DNA of 32,482 nucleotides from a virus. The position numbers were made by a program, and so were the translations under genes. Under the pieces are notes generated by a model. That model worked only from the letters and a program-made list of their open reading frames with translations. It was not told the DNA's origin and searched no databases. Where the stretch lies: IMG/VR virus record IMGVR_UViG_3300044819_000043, positions 1-32,482 of that record. One strand, written 5' to 3'. Positions 2,259 to 19,752 of this stretch are shown here, one piece after another; positions within the stretch are counted from its first letter, which is position 1; each line of letters begins with the position of its first letter.

Positions 2259-2690
2259 CTATTTGGCTGCCGTTTTCCTCTTGGCCTTTTGCTCGGCCAC
2301 GGTGTCTGTTCTGGCGGTTTCGGTGAGGGTAACCTCGCCGTTGGCTTCCTCGACGAAAACAAGCGTTTCCGGCAAGGATGTGCCACTTCCAACATAATTT
2401 CCGGCTGCATCGTAGATTACCATGCCTTCAGCCCGCCACGGGCGCGGGTGGCGGCGTGCCATCCAGGGGCCAGAGCGAGGATCATCCGTTGAACCATTCA
2501 TCGGCCGTCCCATCGTGACGTTCTTCTGCGCCCGGATTTCCGGATTCGGAAATGTCCAACACGAACCACCTCTGTTGAGGAAACAGACCCACAACAAGTG
2601 GTGCTCGACGCCGGGGTCGATGACCAAGTGGCAGAGCCCGGGACCGCGGGGCGTGTCGAGCGGCAGCGGCGGGTCGAGCTGGAGCATCAT
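2259..2690 (-). CDS. Conserved hypothetical phage protein
   Basis: A 143-residue protein starting at the ATG pair at 2690. The first 55 residues (MMLQLDPPLPLDTPRGPGLC, then HLVIDPGVEHHLLWVCFLN, then a WTFPNPEIRAQKNVTMG motif) resemble a small protein I recall from planctomycete phages and prophages, apparently a compact beta-rich domain. The remainder is variable and ends in a Lys/Ala-rich tail. The ORF can be read further upstream, but that part overlaps the divergent promoter and has poor composition. A promoter at 2697-2725 would start RNA at or next to the ATG. The function is unknown. Confidence 0.7.
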   Translation of the reverse strand: MMLQLDPPLPLDTPRGPGLCHLVIDPGVEHHLLWVCFLNRGGSCWTFPNPEIRAQKNVTMGRPMNGSTDDPRSGPWMARRHPRPWRAEGMVIYDAAGNYVGSGTSLPETLVFVEEANGEVTLTETARTDTVAEQKAKRKTAAK

Positions 2691-2696
2691 GCCATC

Positions 2697-2725
2697 ATCG
2701 TATCGCCGCGCCGCGAAGCCGTCAA
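2697..2725 (-). promoter_or_regulatory. Minus-strand promoter, possibly leaderless
   Basis: TTGACG (2725-2720) and TACGAT (2702-2697) are 17 bases apart. Transcription would begin about 7 bases downstream, at the ATG at 2690, giving a leaderless or nearly leaderless message. The hexamers are the same as those of the plus-strand promoter at 2802-2829. Confidence 0.6.
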
Positions 2726-2801
2726 GATATTTTTTGTTTTCGCAAGTCGTTGCGACGGTTGAGATTCGGACGCGACTTTGCGGAATGGAAGAAAATATCG
2801 C

Positions 2802-2829
2802 TTGACGTGGTTTCGCTTTGTGATACGAT
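2802..2829 (+). promoter_or_regulatory. Plus-strand promoter of the replication operon
   Basis: TTGACG (2802-2807) and TACGAT (2824-2829) have a 16-base spacer. Transcription should start near 2836. The first good start codon is then the ATG at 2861, about 25 bases in. The ATG at 2828 overlaps the -10 box and would not be in the RNA. Confidence 0.6.
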
Positions 2830-2860
2830 GTATGACGTGAGACGAAACAACGCCGATAAA

Positions 2861-3016
2861 ATGCCGCGATCCAAACCGAAGGACGCAATGGTTTCCTTTC
2901 GCATGACATCCGTCGAGAGGCGGATGTTCATTCGCATTGCGGTGAAGCGTGGATTGACACTGACGCAATTTCTCTTGTCGTGCGCCAGGAAAGAAGCTGA
3001 ACGGAGCGAACAATGA
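2861..3016 (+). CDS. Ribbon-helix-helix-like small DNA-binding protein
   Basis: A 51-residue protein beginning MPRSKPKDAMVSFRMTSVER. The pattern is a short beta-strand (MVSFRMT), a first helix (VERRMFIRIAVKRG) and a second helix (TLTQFLLSCARKEAE). This matches the ribbon-helix-helix fold of Arc/CopG/MobC-type proteins, which dimerise and bind DNA through the strand. I place the start at 2861 because the promoter's -10 box covers the earlier ATG. As first gene after a divergent promoter pair it is well placed to autoregulate both directions. It overlaps the next gene by ATGA. There is no strong ribosome site, so the start is less sure than the frame. Confidence 0.65.
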   Translation: MPRSKPKDAMVSFRMTSVERRMFIRIAVKRGLTLTQFLLSCARKEAERSEQ

Positions 3017-3333
3017 GCACGATACCGAAGCTACCCATCGACGCGCCCACCAACCGCGCCGCGGACGAACGCGCAGACCGGCTGGCGGAGCTATCGCAGG
3101 CCGTATGGTTCCTGCGCCGCGCGGTGCGAGAGAAAGGCCGCATCGACGTGGAGACGTTTTGCTCTTGCGTCCGCCTCCGCGCCTACTTCCTGGAGGACAT
3201 GCAACAGGACGCCATCGGCCAGGCGGTGAACGCCATCGAGCAGCTTTGGCAGCACGGCGCGTGTGAAGAGTTGCGGAAACTCACGCTTGGAGGCGTGGCG
3301 TGGATTGAAAATATTTTGGAGGCGGTGGAATGA
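3013..3333 (+). CDS. Hypothetical helical protein
   Basis: A 106-residue, mostly helical protein (MSTIPKLPIDAPTNRAADER at the N-terminus). It has no membrane segment and no recognisable catalytic motif. The frame is supported by ATGA overlaps at both ends, with the RHH-like gene before and the 3330 gene after. Two cysteines close together (FCSCVRL) and one later are not arranged as a standard zinc site. It is likely translated by coupling. It is not recognised as a family and sits at the start of the replication operon. Confidence 0.65.
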   Translation: MSTIPKLPIDAPTNRAADERADRLAELSQAVWFLRRAVREKGRIDVETFCSCVRLRAYFLEDMQQDAIGQAVNAIEQLWQHGACEELRKLTLGGVAWIENILEAVE

Positions 3334-3875
3334 ACGAACCCGAAACATTGTGGGAGTGCGAAACCCGGCTGAAGACCATGAGCAACCCGGAGGCCGGTAC
3401 ATGGGACTTGACGGACCGCGACCGCTACGCGATTGCCACCGTGCTAGCGGAGCTGCACAACGTTCGCACCGGCTTGGCTGAACTGCTGGCGGCGAAGGAC
3501 GCGAAAGCGTGCTTGTCGGTAGCCGTCCGCGCGAACGTGTCGAAGAAAGTGCTTCCCGACGTAGGCGATCAAGCGGCTGCGGGCCGCGATCAAGAAGTTG
3601 GAGGGGCTGACATGAAAATCACAACCACCGCACGCGGCTTCGAGCGAATCGACTTCAAGGACCGCTGCGGCGACGATTGCAGCCTGCAACAGTCGTCGGC
3701 CATTGGCGATGCGGAAAACGCCGGTGACCGCCCTGGCTCATCGTTTATATGGCTTGGCGCTGACGCAGATGGGATGCACCTCGACCGCCAGCAAGTCCGC
3801 GAACTCATCAAGCACCTCGAGGCGTGGCTGAAAACCGGCAGCTTCGAGATTCACCCGAAGGAGGCCACGCCGTGA
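3330..3875 (+). CDS. Hypothetical ORF, apparently two genes fused by a frameshift
   Basis: The open frame encodes 181 residues, but it looks composite. Residues 1-75 (beginning MNEPETLWECETRLKTMSNP) are helical with regular codon use. Residues 76-94 are odd in composition. From residue 95 a distinct protein begins. In the +1 frame, bases 3565-3614 read AIKRLRAAIKKLEGLT then stop, ending in a typical ATGA overlap with the start at 3612. Removing one G at 3564-3565 would join residue 78 (DV) to that tail. A single-base insertion, natural or an error, therefore probably fuses a helical protein of about 95 residues to the following gene. A strong ribosome site for the ATG at 3612 supports two genes. 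Confidence 0.5.
   Translation: MNEPETLWECETRLKTMSNPEAGTWDLTDRDRYAIATVLAELHNVRTGLAELLAAKDAKACLSVAVRANVSKKVLPDVGDQAAAGRDQEVGGADMKITTTARGFERIDFKDRCGDDCSLQQSSAIGDAENAGDRPGSSFIWLGADADGMHLDRQQVRELIKHLEAWLKTGSFEIHPKEATP
3612..3875 (+). CDS. Small conserved phage protein, internal start of the fused ORF
   Basis: The ATG at 3612 has GGAGGGG 6 bases upstream and gives an 87-residue protein starting MKITTTARGFERIDFKDRCG. The N-terminal pattern KI..TARGFE.I.FKDR...CSLQ.SS and the ending WLGAD..GMHLDR.QV.ELI..L..W match a family I recall as frequent in phage replication regions, with no assigned role. It is likely an independent gene rather than the tail of 3330-3875. Its stop overlaps the GTG of the nuclease gene. 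Confidence 0.6.
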   Translation: MKITTTARGFERIDFKDRCGDDCSLQQSSAIGDAENAGDRPGSSFIWLGADADGMHLDRQQVRELIKHLEAWLKTGSFEIHPKEATP

Positions 3876-4975
3876 CCGCCCTGGACGCCGCAGTCGCCAC
3901 CGTGAACGCGGAGGAAACCACGGACAACGCACTGGTGTGCGCCAAGGTCCGCGCCCTGCTGCACGGCTATGCGGCACGCTGGCTTGAAGGCGACAAGCAA
4001 GTTTCCGTGCTTGCCGTCGAGGTGACTAGCCGGGCTCCGGTGACGAATCCTGGCACGGGCCGAGGCAGCCGCAAGTTCTCCGCGGCTGGCGTTCTGGACG
4101 TGTTGATCGAGCGGCACGGACGCCGCTGTTTGCTCGACCACAAGACAACTTCCGAGGACGTGGAAGACCCGGCATCGACCTACTGGCGGCAGTTGATCGT
4201 CGAGGCCCAGCCGTCGCACTACATGCTCTTGGAGTGGCTCAACGGCCGCAAGATCGACGAGGCGGTATGGGACGTGGTGAAGAAGCCGAGCATTAGCCCC
4301 CGGCAGTTCAAGAGCAAAGCGGAGAAGGCGCTGGCAGTAAGTGCGCGGAAGTGGTTCGACCACAACCTCGGCGACGATACCCTGGCGTACCTCCAGACCG
4401 AGGACCGCGAGAACATGGAAATGTACGAGGCCCGGCTGACGCACGACTGCACGACCGAAAGGCCCGACCGCTACTTCCAGCGTCGGAGCGTGCCACGGCT
4501 CGACCAGGACATCATGGCCTACGCCAAGGAACTATGGGAAGCCGGCCAAATATTGCTGGACGCCCGCAACAAGGACCGCTGGCCCAAACACCCAAGGAGT
4601 TGCATGGCCCACGGACGACCGTGCGAGTACCTGGGCATTTGCAGCGGCTTCGACACGCTCGAAAGTAATCGCTGGCGGGTGGTCGAACAGGTCCACCGCG
4701 AGATTCCCGACTTGGAAGGCAGCGGCATCGACGTGCTGACGTTTTCCAGCATCACGACGTACCAACAGTGTCCCCGCAAGTATTTCTATCGCTACGAGCG
4801 GGGCATCGAACGAACGGACGAGGAAGAGGCCGAGGCCCTCTACTTCGGCACCATTTTTCATCTTGGCCTCGCAGCCTACTGGCAGGCGTTAATGCCAGAG
4901 GAGAAACCGAATGGCTACCGCAACGAGACAGGCACCGAGTTTGTCGCCGACGGGCCGGAAGGTATCGTTGGCTGA
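3872..4975 (+). CDS. PD-(D/E)XK (RecB/Cas4-like) Fe-S nuclease with permuted motif order
   Basis: A 367-residue protein from a GTG at 3872, with AAGGAGG about 8 bases upstream and a GTGA overlap with the previous gene. Nuclease core motifs are present: D76 in GVLDV, D89-H-K91 in LLDHKTTS, and Q113...Y117 in QPSHYMLL. A C-terminal Cys set follows (C244, C251, C257). After this set comes SSITTYQQCPRKYFYRYERG with C300, then FGTIFHLGL with H330. In normal RecB/Cas4-type phage exonucleases the CPRKY box and the His motif are at the N-terminus, and the four Cys bind one Fe-S cluster. Here that first block sits at the end, as if circularly permuted. The C-terminus overlaps the next gene by 65 bp. 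It probably processes DNA ends for recombination together with the following ATPase. Confidence 0.8.
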   Translation: MTALDAAVATVNAEETTDNALVCAKVRALLHGYAARWLEGDKQVSVLAVEVTSRAPVTNPGTGRGSRKFSAAGVLDVLIERHGRRCLLDHKTTSEDVEDPASTYWRQLIVEAQPSHYMLLEWLNGRKIDEAVWDVVKKPSISPRQFKSKAEKALAVSARKWFDHNLGDDTLAYLQTEDRENMEMYEARLTHDCTTERPDRYFQRRSVPRLDQDIMAYAKELWEAGQILLDARNKDRWPKHPRSCMAHGRPCEYLGICSGFDTLESNRWRVVEQVHREIPDLEGSGIDVLTFSSITTYQQCPRKYFYRYERGIERTDEEEAEALYFGTIFHLGLAAYWQALMPEEKPNGYRNETGTEFVADGPEGIVG

Positions 4976-5780
4976 CGTTCAGAAAACGTCCAGGCAGCTT
5001 CCTTCGCGCCTCGTCCTGAACGGCCAAGCCGGGATCGGCAAGACTTCCTTCGCCGCCCAGGCCACCGCGCCGTTGTTCCTGTTGTCGCCGGGCGAGACCG
5101 GCCTGCTAACCCTGATGGACGCTGGACTGGTGCCGCCGACGCCCAACCTGGAGATCGACACTTGGCCGGCACTGGTCGGAATCATCGACGAACTGACGGC
5201 CACCGAACATGCCTATAAGACGCTGGTGGTGGACACGCTGGACGGCATGGAGAAGCTAGCCAACGCCCACGTCTGCCAGACCGACTACACCGGCGACTGG
5301 TCGGAACGCGGCTTCATGGGCTACCAGCGGGGCTACAAGAGCGTTGCCGCCGGGCCGTGGCGGGAACTGCTCGCCCGGCTCGATAAGCTGCGGGAAACGA
5401 AACGCATGGGCGTAGTCCTCTTGGCCCATAGTGGCGTGGCGAACTTCAGCAACCCGGCCGGCGGCGACTACTCGCGTTACGTGCCCGACATGTTCAAGGA
5501 CGCCTGGACGTTGACTTTCTCTTGGGCCGACATTGTGCTGTTCGGCACCCGCGACGTGAAGGTCGCCAAGGAACGCGGCGATGCCAAGACCAAGGGCAAG
5601 GACTTGGGCACGCGGACGATCTACACGGAATGGAACGCCGCCTGGGACGCGAAGAACCGGCACAACCTGGCGGCCGAGATCGACATGGGCAACAGCGGCA
5701 AGGAGGCATGGGACAATGTCATCGCGGCAGTGAGGGCCGGACGCGCCGCCGCCGACAACGGAAAGGTAGGTGAGGCATGA
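4911..5780 (+). CDS. Sak4/RecA-like AAA ATPase (phage recombinase)
   Basis: A 289-residue P-loop ATPase. Walker A is GQAGIGKTS (38-46) and Walker B is LVVDTLDG (105-112). LLAHSGVANF supplies a sensor-like strand. Size and motif spacing match phage ATP-binding proteins of the Sak4 type (AAA_24-like), which are RecA-core recombinases thought to work with an SSB. The start at 4911 has AGAGGAGA about 6 bases upstream, inside the 3' end of the nuclease gene. The following gene, by ATGA overlap, encodes an SSB-like protein, which fits the known Sak4/SSB pairing. The C-terminus is charged and Ala-rich. Confidence 0.75.
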   Translation: MATATRQAPSLSPTGRKVSLADVQKTSRQLPSRLVLNGQAGIGKTSFAAQATAPLFLLSPGETGLLTLMDAGLVPPTPNLEIDTWPALVGIIDELTATEHAYKTLVVDTLDGMEKLANAHVCQTDYTGDWSERGFMGYQRGYKSVAAGPWRELLARLDKLRETKRMGVVLLAHSGVANFSNPAGGDYSRYVPDMFKDAWTLTFSWADIVLFGTRDVKVAKERGDAKTKGKDLGTRTIYTEWNAAWDAKNRHNLAAEIDMGNSGKEAWDNVIAAVRAGRAAADNGKVGEA

Positions 5781-6337
5781 ACGCGCAATACGAACCTGGC
5801 CGCTACTGGGGCCAGATCACGAATCAGGAACTCAGCAAGTCATCGACGGGCAACCCGCAGATCGTTATCTCGTTCCGCCTTGTCGGCCGGGTGAACCTGT
5901 CGGACCCCGAAGGCGAGTTGCTGCGCTGTCCCGACGGCGAACGGCGGATGTTCCGTAGCATCACCGACAAGACGATCGAGTACGTCTTGGACGACTTGCA
6001 GAAGCTCGGCTTCAACGGCACTTCGTTCAGCCAGATCGACCTGGAGAGGGAAGGTTGCATCGACCTGCGAAGCACGGAACATGCCTTTATGTGCGCCCAC
6101 GAGGAGTATAATGGCAAGGTCCGCGAGAAGTGGTCGCTGTCGGGCGATTTTAAGTCCGAACCGCTTCCCGAAAAGGAGGCGCGGCAACTGGACGCGCTGT
6201 TTGGTGCGGCATTGCGGAAGCGTGCCAAGCAGGCACCAGCGGCAGAGAAGCCGCAACCGAAGCACGAGCCGGTGACGCAAGGCGTCGGCACGGGCGCGAA
6301 TGTCGAACCGCGAGACGACTCGGATATTCCTTGGTAG
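5777..6337 (+). CDS. SSB-like single-stranded-DNA binding protein
   Basis: A 186-residue protein with an N-terminal beta-rich half (MNAQYEPGRYWGQITNQELS, then QIVISFRLVGRVNL) that suits an OB fold of the DUF669 or similar phage type. It has a low-complexity Pro/Gln/Lys linker at about 155-175 and an acidic tip ending DDSDIPW. The tip is the equivalent of the bacterial SSB tail DDDIPF that recruits replication and repair partners, with Trp for Phe. It follows the Sak4-like ATPase by an ATGA overlap, as expected for a recombination pair. The OB fold itself is inferred from strand pattern, not seen directly. Confidence 0.7.
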   Translation: MNAQYEPGRYWGQITNQELSKSSTGNPQIVISFRLVGRVNLSDPEGELLRCPDGERRMFRSITDKTIEYVLDDLQKLGFNGTSFSQIDLEREGCIDLRSTEHAFMCAHEEYNGKVREKWSLSGDFKSEPLPEKEARQLDALFGAALRKRAKQAPAAEKPQPKHEPVTQGVGTGANVEPRDDSDIPW

Positions 6338-11475: not shown

Positions 11476-11709
11476 ATGACCCGCGAGCGGATCGGATTCG
11501 ACCGCCAGCCCCAGGCCCGCACCGTCGAGTGCGTGCCGTGCGGCAATGTCTCGCCGATCGAGCGAGCGGGCGACTGGCCGCAGATCGTCGTGCTTCCGAC
11601 CTGGGACCGAACAGAGAACTACGACGCCATCGGGCGATGCCCGGAATGCGAAGCGCGAATCGAGCGACAGGCGATCAACGAACCAGAACCCGAGGCCCTA
11701 CTTTTTTGA
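11476..11709 (+). CDS. Small zinc-ribbon protein
   Basis: A 77-residue protein taken from the ATG at 11476, which overlaps the original stop of the broken HNH gene (ATGA). It begins MTRERIGFDRQPQARTVECV and has CVPCG (residues 19-23) and CPEC (about 55-58), a zinc-ribbon spacing, and ends in an acidic EPEPEALLF. The same frame open back to 11377 only repeats bases of the HNH tail. The function is not recognised. Confidence 0.6.
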   Translation: MTRERIGFDRQPQARTVECVPCGNVSPIERAGDWPQIVVLPTWDRTENYDAIGRCPECEARIERQAINEPEPEALLF

Positions 11710-11720
11710 AAGGACAAACG

Positions 11721-11867
11721 ATGGACGAGAAGCCGACCACCGCAGAAACCAAGCCGAACGACCCACTGGAGCAGCCGAACGACCCACTGGAGCAGCCGAA
11801 CGACCCACTGGAGCAGCCGAACGACCCACTGGAGCAGCCGAACGACCCACTGGAGCAGCCGAAATGA
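11721..11867 (+). CDS. 48-residue heptapeptide-repeat protein
   Basis: AAAGGA lies 7 bases before the ATG at 11721. The product is MDEKPTTAETK, then five identical PNDPLEQ units, then PK. The 21-bp units (11754-11858) are perfect DNA repeats, so copy number is probably variable. Composition is Pro, Asp, Glu and Asn rich, so it is likely disordered, acidic and without a fold of its own. It overlaps the next start by ATGA. It may be a linker or binding peptide; it could also be a translated filler with no function. Confidence 0.5.
   Translation: MDEKPTTAETKPNDPLEQPNDPLEQPNDPLEQPNDPLEQPNDPLEQPK
11754..11858. repeat. Five perfect 21-bp tandem repeats
   Basis: The unit CCGAACGACCCACTGGAGCA plus G is repeated five times without mismatch and encodes PNDPLEQ. 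Perfect identity implies recent slippage or recombination; assembly could easily have collapsed or expanded it. Confidence 0.9.
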
Positions 11868-12034
11868 GCACAACGAGCGACAGCAAACCGGACCCGTCCT
11901 GCCGGCACACACTCGACCACCGCGACAAGGCCGGAAGCTGGAAAGTCGTTGACCGCAAGGTCGTCTGCCGCGAGTGCGGAAAATTTTACGGACACGTCAA
12001 CCAAACCCAAGAGCAGAAGCCGGAAGCGTTCTAG
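11864..12034 (+). CDS. Small zinc-finger protein
   Basis: A 56-residue protein, MSTTSDSKPDPSCRHTLDHR at the start, with a C/H pair (CRHT...H) and VVCRECGKFYGHV near the C-terminus. The ending CR.CGKF.G resembles a small phage zinc-finger family I recall. It overlaps the repeat-protein gene by ATGA. The 157-bp gap after it holds a perfect palindrome, CGCCCGCGGGCG, at 12121-12132 and a second copy of the ATGGCACGCCAG start sequence (12073), but no convincing gene. Confidence 0.6.
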   Translation: MSTTSDSKPDPSCRHTLDHRDKAGSWKVVDRKVVCRECGKFYGHVNQTQEQKPEAF

Positions 12035-16964: not shown

Positions 16965-17743
16965 AAACCCTAATCGCCCTACTGCTGCTCACCGCGACGG
17001 CTGCCGCCCAGGTGCCGCCGTCCGATCCGCACTCGGCGTCGAGCGTACTGCACGCGGCGTTCCACGACGACCCGTTCGGCGATCAAAGCGGTGATACCAC
17101 CAGAATGATCGCCCAGGGCGTCCTGCCTGATCCGCCTGCCGCCGCCGGCAAGCCGATATGCACCGGCACGGCCTGGACGACGCCGATGAAGGCGGCGGAC
17201 CCCACCGACCCCCTGGACTCGCTCTATCAGGCCAGCAAGACCGCCGACGCGGCATTGGACCAGACCGTGCAGCAAGAGGCGGCGGCGGCCTCAGCGCACG
17301 CGGCAGCGACCCAGGCGAGGCAGTCGGCCAAGGTCATCAGCGACAAGGCGGCGGCCGACTTCGCGGCGGAGTGGCAAAAGCGGCACGGCGGGGTCACTCC
17401 GCCCCCGACACCGCCGAGCCCTCCGCCAACGCCACCGGCACCGATCCCCGTTCCGCCACCCGCCGCCAAGGTATCGCTGCTCTTGATTTCCTCGCTGCCC
17501 GGCGACGGCTTCAAGTGTGCCGCGTGCGATGACGTGGCGACAAACACGATCCCCAAGCTGAGTCTCGGCGACCAATTACGGGTCATCGGCTGGTCGGGCG
17601 ACGAAGCCAAACGGCCAGAGAATCGTTTCGACGCCAGAATTCCGCGATGGAAGTTGACGCGGGGCGACGGCACTACGGAAACCTTCGTCGGCAAACTGTC
17701 GGCGGAACAAGTCACAAACTGGATTGCAGGGACCAAACCATGA
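16961..17743 (+). CDS. Secreted thioredoxin-like protein with Pro-rich linker
   Basis: A 260-residue protein chosen at the ATG at 16961 (ATGA overlap). Residues 1-17 (MKTLIALLLLTATAAAQ) are a clean signal peptide. The middle is Ala/Asp/Gln-rich and helical. A Pro-rich hinge of the TPPPTPPSPPPTPP type follows at about residues 145-170. The C-terminal 85 residues read as a thioredoxin fold: VSLLLISSLPGDGFKCAACD with a CxxC (CAAC), a middle strand (LRVIGWSG), a cis-Pro-like RIPRWKL, then TRGDGTTETFVGKLSAEQ. It would be exported and may act on disulfides. Its stop overlaps the start of the protease-intein gene, which makes a functional link with a cysteine protease attractive though unproven. Confidence 0.6.
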   Translation: MKTLIALLLLTATAAAQVPPSDPHSASSVLHAAFHDDPFGDQSGDTTRMIAQGVLPDPPAAAGKPICTGTAWTTPMKAADPTDPLDSLYQASKTADAALDQTVQQEAAAASAHAAATQARQSAKVISDKAAADFAAEWQKRHGGVTPPPTPPSPPPTPPAPIPVPPPAAKVSLLLISSLPGDGFKCAACDDVATNTIPKLSLGDQLRVIGWSGDEAKRPENRFDARIPRWKLTRGDGTTETFVGKLSAEQVTNWIAGTKP

Positions 17744-19752
17744 ATCGAGCCCGAGGCCGAGTCAATCCGCAGAACATGGCGGCCCAGCACTTGCGGCACG
17801 CCGAGCGGCACGCGGCAATCCATTCCGGGTTCCGAACGGCCGCCGCCGCTCCATTGCCCGACAGCTACGACTGCACGAATCTCTGCACGCCCGTAAAAAA
17901 CCAGGGGCAATGCGGTAGCTGCCATGATTCGGCTACCGAGGTTTTGACTGAGAAAGGTTGGGTCGCGTGGCCGGAATATAACTGGATCACGCCGCTTGGC
18001 ACGATGAATCCGGCGAGCGGATTTCTCGAATTCCAAGTCCCTATCGTCAAGCATATCTACGATCACGATGGCCCGATGTACTTTTACGACGGCCGCTCGC
18101 TGGATTTCGCCTTGACTCCGAATCACCGCATGGTTTGGGGTCGGAACAAGGGATCGTGGAAAAAGTCCGCCATCTCCAATATGCCGCAATACGCGGACAT
18201 TCCTCATGCGACGGTTGGTTGGAAAGGCACGGAACTCAAGCGGCTCGGAATCGCTGATCGCACCTACGACGGCGATGACCTTTTGGCCTTGGTTGCTCAC
18301 GTCATTTCGTGCGGACACGTCGGGCATCAGGATGACGGCAATGGAGGCCGGAACAAGATTACGTTTTCATGCTTCCGCGACGAACGGATTGAGCAAGTGC
18401 GGTCGCTGGCTTATCGGCTCGACATCCCTGAGCAAACTTCGCGGCCCGGTGTCTGGTACTTCCGCGATGCGGAATTGGCCGAATGGTTCCGGCAGAACGC
18501 CTACGACGGCCGCGGTTTCAAGGCGGGGCACAAGCGCGTGCCGATGCTCGTCAAGTGCGCGAGCCAGCGGCAGATTGAGCATTTTCTGTCTGCCTTCGGG
18601 GATCAGCATAGGCAAAGCTACGGCGGTCGGCGGTTCTACAGCGGCAGTCGGCTGATGATCGACGATCTCCAGGAACTCTTGCTGCGGATCGGCAAGCGCG
18701 GCACGATTGAGGAATATCCGCCGCGCGAACATGGCACGTTTCACGGCACGCTGCCGGAGTTGATGCTGACGGAGCGTAAGCGTGATAGCCTCTGCGTCGA
18801 AAAGGAGAACACTCGCACGGACCACTACAAGGGAAAGGTCTACTGCGCTACAGTTCCCAATGGAACGCTCGTGACCCGCCGCAACAAGCTCGTGCTCATT
18901 AGTTCGAATTGTTGGGACTTCTCAGGTACTTGCATGGTCGAGGCGGCGAACATCTTCACCACCACCCTGCCCGACAACTCGGCGGCCAGCCAGCTCTCCG
19001 AACAGTACACGCTGGACCAGTGCGACGGCAGCAACGGCGGATGCGGCGGCGACAACAACACGACCGTCCTCCAAGATGCCAAGACTGGTGGGCTGCCGCT
19101 GACGAGCGTCTACGGCCCCTACACGGCGAACGAGGGAAGTTGCAAACTGCCTCGCGCTCGCATCAAGACCACTCCCGGCGTTGGGCTGCTCTACACGATT
19201 TCCGACTGGGGCTATGTGGGTACGCAAGCCGGCGTTCCGGCGACCGAACTAATCAAGGCGGCCATGCTGCAATATGGGCCGATCGGCGTTGCCATTGCCG
19301 CTGATAATGCCTTTGAGCGATGGGGCGACAGCGGCCCGAACGACGCGACGTTTCCTGGTTCTGGCGCAAGGGACATCGACCACGATGTTGTGCTTGTCGG
19401 CTGGGACGAGGTTCGCAGGGCATGGAAGCTCCGAAACAGTTGGGGGCCGGATTGGTGCAACGGCGGTTATATCTGGATCGCCTACGGCGCGAACCTCGTC
19501 GGCTATGAGGCGGTGTGGTGTACGGCCGGAACGCCAGTCCCCCGCCCCCCCCCCCCCCCCCCCCCCCCCCCAACCGCCGAAGCCGGTTCCGACGCCCACC
19601 CGCCGCGCGATGGACTTGGCGCACTACCACGCCAGCCTTGGCATTTCTCCCGACCTGTCGATGAGGCTGACTCGTGCCGCCTCGCACCTGTGGGAGATTC
19701 CCGAGGCCCGCCCGATCCTGTTGGAACTGCTGGACGAACTGACGCCGCGTGA
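17740..19752 (+). CDS. Papain-family (C1) cysteine protease interrupted by an intein
   Basis: I start at the ATG at 17740 (ATGA overlap); the frame open to 17647 lies in the previous gene. The 670-residue precursor has a 60-residue N-extein ending TPVKNQGQCGS, a 330-residue intein (61-390), and a C-extein starting CWDFSG. Joined, they give the papain active-site block NQGQCGSCWDFSG, with the oxyanion Gln at 55 and the catalytic Cys at precursor residue 391. The rest of the triad is seen: H548 in DIDHDVVLVGWD and N566 in RNSWGPDW. LSEQYTLDQCDGSNGGCGGD is the usual second block. Only about 40 residues precede the mature-domain start, so there is no I29 prodomain, and no signal peptide is visible. 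The end is a Pro run from the poly-C tract and a frameshifted tail. Confidence 0.9.
   Translation: MNRARGRVNPQNMAAQHLRHAERHAAIHSGFRTAAAAPLPDSYDCTNLCTPVKNQGQCGSCHDSATEVLTEKGWVAWPEYNWITPLGTMNPASGFLEFQVPIVKHIYDHDGPMYFYDGRSLDFALTPNHRMVWGRNKGSWKKSAISNMPQYADIPHATVGWKGTELKRLGIADRTYDGDDLLALVAHVISCGHVGHQDDGNGGRNKITFSCFRDERIEQVRSLAYRLDIPEQTSRPGVWYFRDAELAEWFRQNAYDGRGFKAGHKRVPMLVKCASQRQIEHFLSAFGDQHRQSYGGRRFYSGSRLMIDDLQELLLRIGKRGTIEEYPPREHGTFHGTLPELMLTERKRDSLCVEKENTRTDHYKGKVYCATVPNGTLVTRRNKLVLISSNCWDFSGTCMVEAANIFTTTLPDNSAASQLSEQYTLDQCDGSNGGCGGDNNTTVLQDAKTGGLPLTSVYGPYTANEGSCKLPRARIKTTPGVGLLYTISDWGYVGTQAGVPATELIKAAMLQYGPIGVAIAADNAFERWGDSGPNDATFPGSGARDIDHDVVLVGWDEVRRAWKLRNSWGPDWCNGGYIWIAYGANLVGYEAVWCTAGTPVPRPPPPPPPPPTAEAGSDAHPPRDGLGALPRQPWHFSRPVDEADSCRLAPVGDSRGPPDPVGTAGRTDAA
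17920..18909 (+). mobile_element. Intein with LAGLIDADG-like endonuclease domain, at the protease active site
   Basis: The intein is 330 residues. Block A is CHDSATEVLTEKGW (Cys1). Block B contains TPNH (66-69) in RSLDFALTPNHRMVW. Two LAGLIDADG-like helices are DDLLALVAHVISCGHV (119-134) and QIEHFLSAFGDQHR (218-231). Block F is YKGKVYCATVPNGTL (303-317). Block G ends LVLISSN, followed by Cys+1. The terminal residue is Asn, but the usual penultimate His is Ser, as in some phage inteins of the VPNGTL type. In the first endonuclease helix the expected acidic residue appears to be Cys, so cutting activity is doubtful. The boundaries are exact because removing this piece restores an ordinary papain active site. 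Confidence 0.93.
19545..19571 (+). repeat. Run of 27 cytosines in coding sequence
   Basis: An uninterrupted C27 encodes nine prolines of the linker after the protease domain. Another C5 precedes it (19539-19543), separated by one G. Such a tract is prone to slippage in replication and to sequencing error. Losing one C (or gaining two) would place the downstream sequence in the frame that encodes the likely real C-terminal domain. Confidence 0.9.

Follow-up and report, generated by a model that had tools for sequence, protein, structure and literature searches.

Iron-staple nucleases are named for the layout of their cluster-binding cysteines, one of which lies before the core and three after it. 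A virus record of 32,482 bases, analysed here in its entirety and referred to as the window, carries on its plus strand an open reading frame (3872-4975) in which the motifs of such an enzyme are present but all four cysteines lie C-terminal of the catalytic core, and the question is thus whether the gene encodes a circularly permuted nuclease, as the initial annotation had proposed. The protein has 367 amino acids; its frame is open from a GTG codon at 3872 to the stop codon at 4973-4975, with an AAGGAGG ribosome-binding site approximately 8 nucleotides upstream of the GTG, and both frame and start signal are indeed clean. When located in the translation, the motifs follow one another as D76, D89-H-K91, Q113xxxY117, C244-x6-C251-x5-C257, C300-PRKY and FGTxxH330, which is the order first described; the CPRKY and FGTxxH boxes, which normally begin such proteins, are found at its C-terminal end.

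We consider it highly probable that the gene encodes an iron-staple (AddB/Cas4/Dna2) type of RecB-family PD-(D/E)XK nuclease that has been circularly permuted in nature and would act with Sak4 and single-stranded DNA-binding (SSB) proteins. The ancestral N-terminal box, with its cluster cysteine and the motif-I histidine and helix, would have moved to the C-terminus; the old ends would have been joined through a linker of approximately 40 residues beside the cluster, and the new ends would lie in the short loop that follows the His helix. The same nuclease fold would be expected, with a metal site formed by D76, D89, K91 and H330, while C244, C251, C257 and C300 would bind an Fe-S cluster or another metal; this could be zinc, which occupies the four-cysteine site of a related fold (PMC3466216).

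Residue conservation was analyzed across 50 sequences of the permuted and 23 of the conventional order; all coordinates refer to the plus strand. The aspartate of motif II (D76, 4097-4099; context G73-x-x-D76) is invariant in both sets, as are the glycine and histidine of motif I (F325-G-T-x-x-H330, here FGTIFH, 4844-4861). In motif III (D89-H-K91, 4136-4144) the lysine is invariant, while the first position is D in 49 of the 50 permuted proteins (DHK) versus E in 20 of the 23 conventional ones (EHK). Motif IV (Q113xxxY117, 4208-4222) does not vary. The RecB-family set of motifs I (His), II (Asp), III ((D/E)xK) and IV (QxxxY) is thus present, and invariant or nearly so, in 50/50 permuted sequences. 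C244, C251 and C257 (4601-4642), normally the three C-terminal cysteines, are conserved in 50/50, as is the fourth, C300 of CPRKY (4769-4771), which is normally N-terminal. Residues that never vary among the 50 are the four cysteines, E50, D76, K91, Q113, Y117, G326 and H330. The protein would be expected to function as other iron-staple nucleases do. Because it belongs to their superfamily by homology but lacks its defining arrangement of one N-terminal and three C-terminal cysteines, all four falling here within 57 residues, we file it as a permuted branch. A different departure is seen in Micrococcus phage Olihed (positions 2501-3511 of that locus), whose nuclease has the conventional order and keeps the N-terminal cysteine, while the three C-terminal ones are gone.

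Profile searches reflect the rotated order. Pfam PF12705 (PDDEXK_1) matches the nuclease with 61.5 bits (cut-off 22) as two stretches, profile positions 2-59 falling on residues 289-345 and the later part of the profile on the front of the protein. Likewise, phrog_1218 matches in two stretches of swapped order, the larger of which places residues 11-257 on profile positions 85-329; conventional relatives match this profile as one collinear stretch, whereas permuted proteins match it as two. In a profile-profile comparison (hhalign), residues 2-282 of the permuted proteins aligned to conventional residues 62-328 with an E value of 7.7e-60 and 33% identity over 266 columns, stopping a few residues short of the conventional C-terminus. 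Together with hmmsearch, this defines a core segment (residues 1-283, 3872-4720) equivalent to conventional residues ~62-331, including the C-terminal end VHxEL. The remaining box (residues 284-345, 4721-4906) is equivalent to conventional residues 1-60, and aligned to conventional residues 5-57 with an E value of 2.1e-13 and 40% identity, in agreement with the PF12705 match. Two homologous blocks in swapped order are direct evidence of a permutation of an iron-staple RecB-family nuclease in which the N-terminal box is now C-terminal.

The joint itself (residues 258-299, 4643-4768) could be delimited from alignments and spacing statistics, and consists of the former C-terminal tail (...VHREIPDL) joined to the former N-terminal lead (...DVLTFSSI). 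The start of conventional proteins reads xxLxLLTNSxL...C and their end ...VHPELx(n); in the permuted proteins these elements are continuous, as ...VHxELPxLEGDGRDVLTNSRI...C. The third cysteine and the box cysteine of permuted proteins are separated by 27-49 residues (median 41), while in conventional proteins the third cysteine is followed by a median of 31 residues, to which a short lead is added. The permuted spacing thus approximates the conventional tail and lead combined, indicating that the joint is close to an end-to-end fusion.

This order is a property of a family rather than of one contig; merging of two incomplete copies by misassembly had been named as an observation that would undo the initial annotation. 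Searches of viral contigs with the single protein returned few relatives and alignments were required; alignment-based scans of IMG/VR yielded 23 and later 63 related loci, and almost all of them aligned to the permuted query in collinear fashion. Conventional relatives came from genomes of the phyla of two metagenome-assembled genomes (MAGs), a Planctomycetaceae MAG and a Deltaproteobacteria MAG, and from IMG/VR searched with a conventional alignment. Open frames were sorted into permuted and conventional with separate profiles for core and box, which showed that the permuted order is common to at least 50 distinct proteins; about as many are conventional, and none carries two boxes. By tblastn, the permuted order was found at 49% identity in the Tunturiibacter phages Tunturi 1 and Tunturi 2, which are isolated podovirus-like phages with lytic infection (PMC11924767). 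When the conventional profile was compared to their complete genomes it matched a single gene, as two swapped blocks, which is therefore the only copy. The permuted nuclease also occurs on two MAG contigs, one from the Planctomycetaceae and one from the Deltaproteobacteria (placed in the Myxococcota).

Homologues with the same order, suggested from the outset as a check, are therefore available in number, and their retention of the motif order goes far beyond chance and excludes misassembly. An assembly artefact, or a fusion of two incomplete copies, would be suggested by nothing beyond an unusual motif order in a metagenomic contig; its probability is negligible, because the frame is intact, the residues are invariant and the order recurs in at least 50 distinct sequences, which come from independent contigs, among them two from MAGs, and from two isolated phages with complete genomes. 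It is also very improbable that the protein is a decaying or inactive nuclease whose motif order no longer matters. The intact chain does give just partial matches in PDB searches, as decay might, but catalytic and cysteine residues are all invariant in 50 diverse sequences, and the one broken frame is the exception rather than the rule; with the frame in the window intact as well, a pseudogene was rejected. That broken copy, at positions 3310-4330 of locus L069, is split by a frame change, and its near relative L055 is unsplit. One genome from the phylum of the Planctomycetaceae MAG carries a divergent permuted copy and, approximately 1.4 Mb away, a conventional one, each of them followed by a Sak4-like gene.

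A structure prediction, also called for by the initial annotation, gave an AlphaFold model of the permuted protein with a mean pLDDT of 84.7 and a pTM of 0.80; the corresponding values for a conventional relative, L112, were 92.8 and 0.87. The conventional model begins with E7-9, H10-18, H20-28, E31-33 and H38-59 (E, strand; H, helix), continues after the point of the cut with H63-70, H77-94, E99-113, E120-136, E142-150, H159, H168 and E184, and ends with H227, H242, E246, H255, H298 and E313. The permuted model starts with H2-14, H17-41, E44-58, E65-81, E84-93, H103, H113 and E130, continues with H182, H198, E202, H211, H254 and E268, and then, after a short element at 288-289, closes with H291-299, H301-309, E312-314 and H320-340. 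In the predicted structures, the two proteins thus share one list of elements, rotated, with the cut between H38-59 and H63-70; this three-residue loop after the His helix is where the new ends had been placed. In structure searches, the conventional model matched Cas4-family ACE1 and AddB over 300-400 columns (E values down to 8e-8), while the permuted model matched MGME1, AdnA, Cas4 and AddAB, its best matches mostly covering 110-170 columns (E values down to 2e-4). Such short matches are expected when a sequential aligner, bound to chain order, meets a rotated chain. The viral model A0A6J5NSY1, in contrast, matched the permuted model over its full length with preserved order (TM 0.74/0.79), so that unlabelled permuted members are probably already present in public databases.

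From the confidence of the model and this match, we infer that the moved box would contact the core of its own chain. A different arrangement is quite unlikely, but deserves to be weighed: by domain swapping, the box of one protomer could complete its neighbour's active site and cluster, and the enzyme would then work only as an oligomer. Some relatives are oligomeric, Cas4 SSO0001 being a toroidal decamer (PMC4176176), and a 42-residue linker could reach across protomers. In addition, the model is uncertain around C244 (mean pLDDT 54 for residues 241-250 and 78 for 251-260), so that the cluster site itself is poorly predicted. The monomer model, on the other hand, is fairly confident in the box, with block means of 86-94 except for 69 at residues 311-320, and an independent viral model matches it in full; furthermore, the length of the joint is close to the prediction for end-to-end fusion within one chain.

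The permuted nuclease gene is followed by two putative partner genes on the same strand. The first (4911-5780) encodes a Sak4-like RecA-family single-strand annealing ATPase (phrog_124, E 1.6e-30; PF13479, E 6.6e-30), 43% identical to the Sak4-like protein of Tunturi 2, and the second (5777-6337) an SSB-like protein with the acidic tail DDSDIPW, 35% identical to the SSB-annotated protein of Tunturi 2. The window thus shows the arrangement of a phage Sak4 recombination module, with Sak4 adjacent and SSB next, and further on it carries genes for a DnaB-like helicase and for RusA. A Sak4 gene lies no more than ~0.6 kb downstream in every permuted locus that extends past the nuclease gene, and SSB follows Sak4 in nearly all permuted loci with enough flank; most conventional loci have Sak4 downstream as well. 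The Sak4 of phage HK620 has single-strand annealing activity, which its SSB stimulates (PMC5928155). The 5'-3' exonucleases Cas4 SSO0001 and AddB leave 3' tails, or have been proposed to do so (PMC3466216). Since Sak4 and usually SSB follow the nuclease in both orders, its role is most likely that of an end-resection exonuclease of the recombination module; we infer its activity, polarity and partnership with Sak4. Together with the Sak4 annealase and SSB, it would resect DNA ends or trim strands for single-strand annealing recombination.

An active permuted nuclease could also have its main job in counter-defence or in the capture of DNA, roles that some phage Cas4 proteins are suspected to have. 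The box weakly resembles Cas4 models (15.1 bits for TIGR00372, approximately 15 bits for the PADLOC Cas4 model), and what Cas4 does in mobile elements is still an open matter (PMC5704561). We nevertheless regard such a role as unlikely, since the TIGR00372 score is far under the family cut-off of 65 bits and, whichever the order, the gene is constantly coupled to Sak4 and SSB; genes for a DnaB-like helicase and for RusA lie in the same region.

How the permuted order arose was addressed with a tree built from both segments in a common order. In this tree, 49 permuted rows form one group (support 96/92), beside which lie one further permuted sequence, L077, and a conventional sequence with a long branch, L072, which group together. 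This placement would suggest two independent permutation events, a scenario that we did not retain: in the AU test, one clade of all permuted rows was not rejected (p-AU 0.55 and 0.36), and the simplest view is that the order arose once. The initial annotation had suggested that a tandem duplication, from which the outer halves were then lost, could have produced it. This fits the joint, as duplication and truncation would give exactly such a joint, and such an origin is plausible, but its expected traces did not appear: in six frames of 165 loci, neither a box-core-box intermediate nor leftover half-copies scored above chance level. Long conventional frames, such as that of L079 (753 aa), carry one box and one core each. 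It is conceivable, although we would place it somewhat short of probable, that the permutation was a single early event in a phage lineage whose hosts today are linked to the Planctomycetota, Acidobacteriota and Myxococcota, and that the cluster must serve beyond clamping the termini, for example as a DNA-end grip or a scaffold for the local fold. The once-clamped ends are now covalently joined, yet the four cysteines are invariant, which on this reading indicates that the cluster was kept for a job other than clamping.

Among known systems, the closest are the phrog_1218 exonucleases, whose conventional Planctomycete and viral members (L092 and L112 among others) share the motif set at the identity given above; L112 has the same C-x6-C-x5-C spacing, and these relatives have four cysteines and the same downstream Sak4 gene. 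Their Cys/FGTxxH box is N-terminal, however, whereas here it is C-terminal, and their motif III is mostly EHK rather than DHK. The nuclease domain of AddB, Dna2 and Bad likewise combine RecB motifs with four cysteines, and a conventional relative matches AddB with an E value of 3e-7, but these enzymes are fused to helicases and have the standard order, while the nuclease described here stands alone with its cysteines close together. Cas4 proteins such as SSO0001 and Pcal_0546 are stand-alone iron-staple nucleases with the motif-I histidine near the metal and a weakly similar box, a weak Cas4 match to the box being all that a sequence search of solved structures returned (4r5q, E 0.34); in contrast to them, the permuted protein scores below Cas4 family cut-offs, has the rotated order, and no CRISPR genes were seen with it. 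A0A6J5NSY1, from an uncultured Caudovirales phage, is annotated just as PD-(D/E)XK nuclease superfamily and is presumably also permuted, judging from its structure match. Natural circular permutation is known in phage DNA adenine methyltransferases (PMC7824862), which are likewise DNA enzymes but differ in fold and activity.

In the literature searched, with the main PD-(D/E)XK superfamily review lying outside it, we came across no RecB, iron-staple or Cas4-like nuclease described as circularly permuted. The family is a clean example of circular permutation in nature, and its joint can be identified; profile and fold searches that follow chain order recognise the lineage incompletely. Evolution has here connected the old ends and broken the chain at another place, and the cluster ligands remain fully conserved. 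In this natural experiment the cluster's role, be it a clamp, a DNA grip or a folding nucleus, can be tested directly, and close conventional relatives can serve as controls.

Other features of the window were observed in passing. A papain-like cysteine protease is encoded on the plus strand at 17647-19752 (PF00112, E 4e-27). An insert of ~300 residues that begins with a cysteine, ends with SSN|C and has a LAGLIDADG-like match splits its active-site motif, QGQCGS-CWDFSG; this insert is apparently an intein sitting exactly at the catalytic cysteine. At positions 1-240, ctgaggtccgcgccg and variants of it are repeated in tandem with a period of 15 bases, the pattern that a pentapeptide-repeat gene near a contig end would give, and an open frame on the plus strand (11546-12034) contains a perfect AAERPTG peptide repeat.
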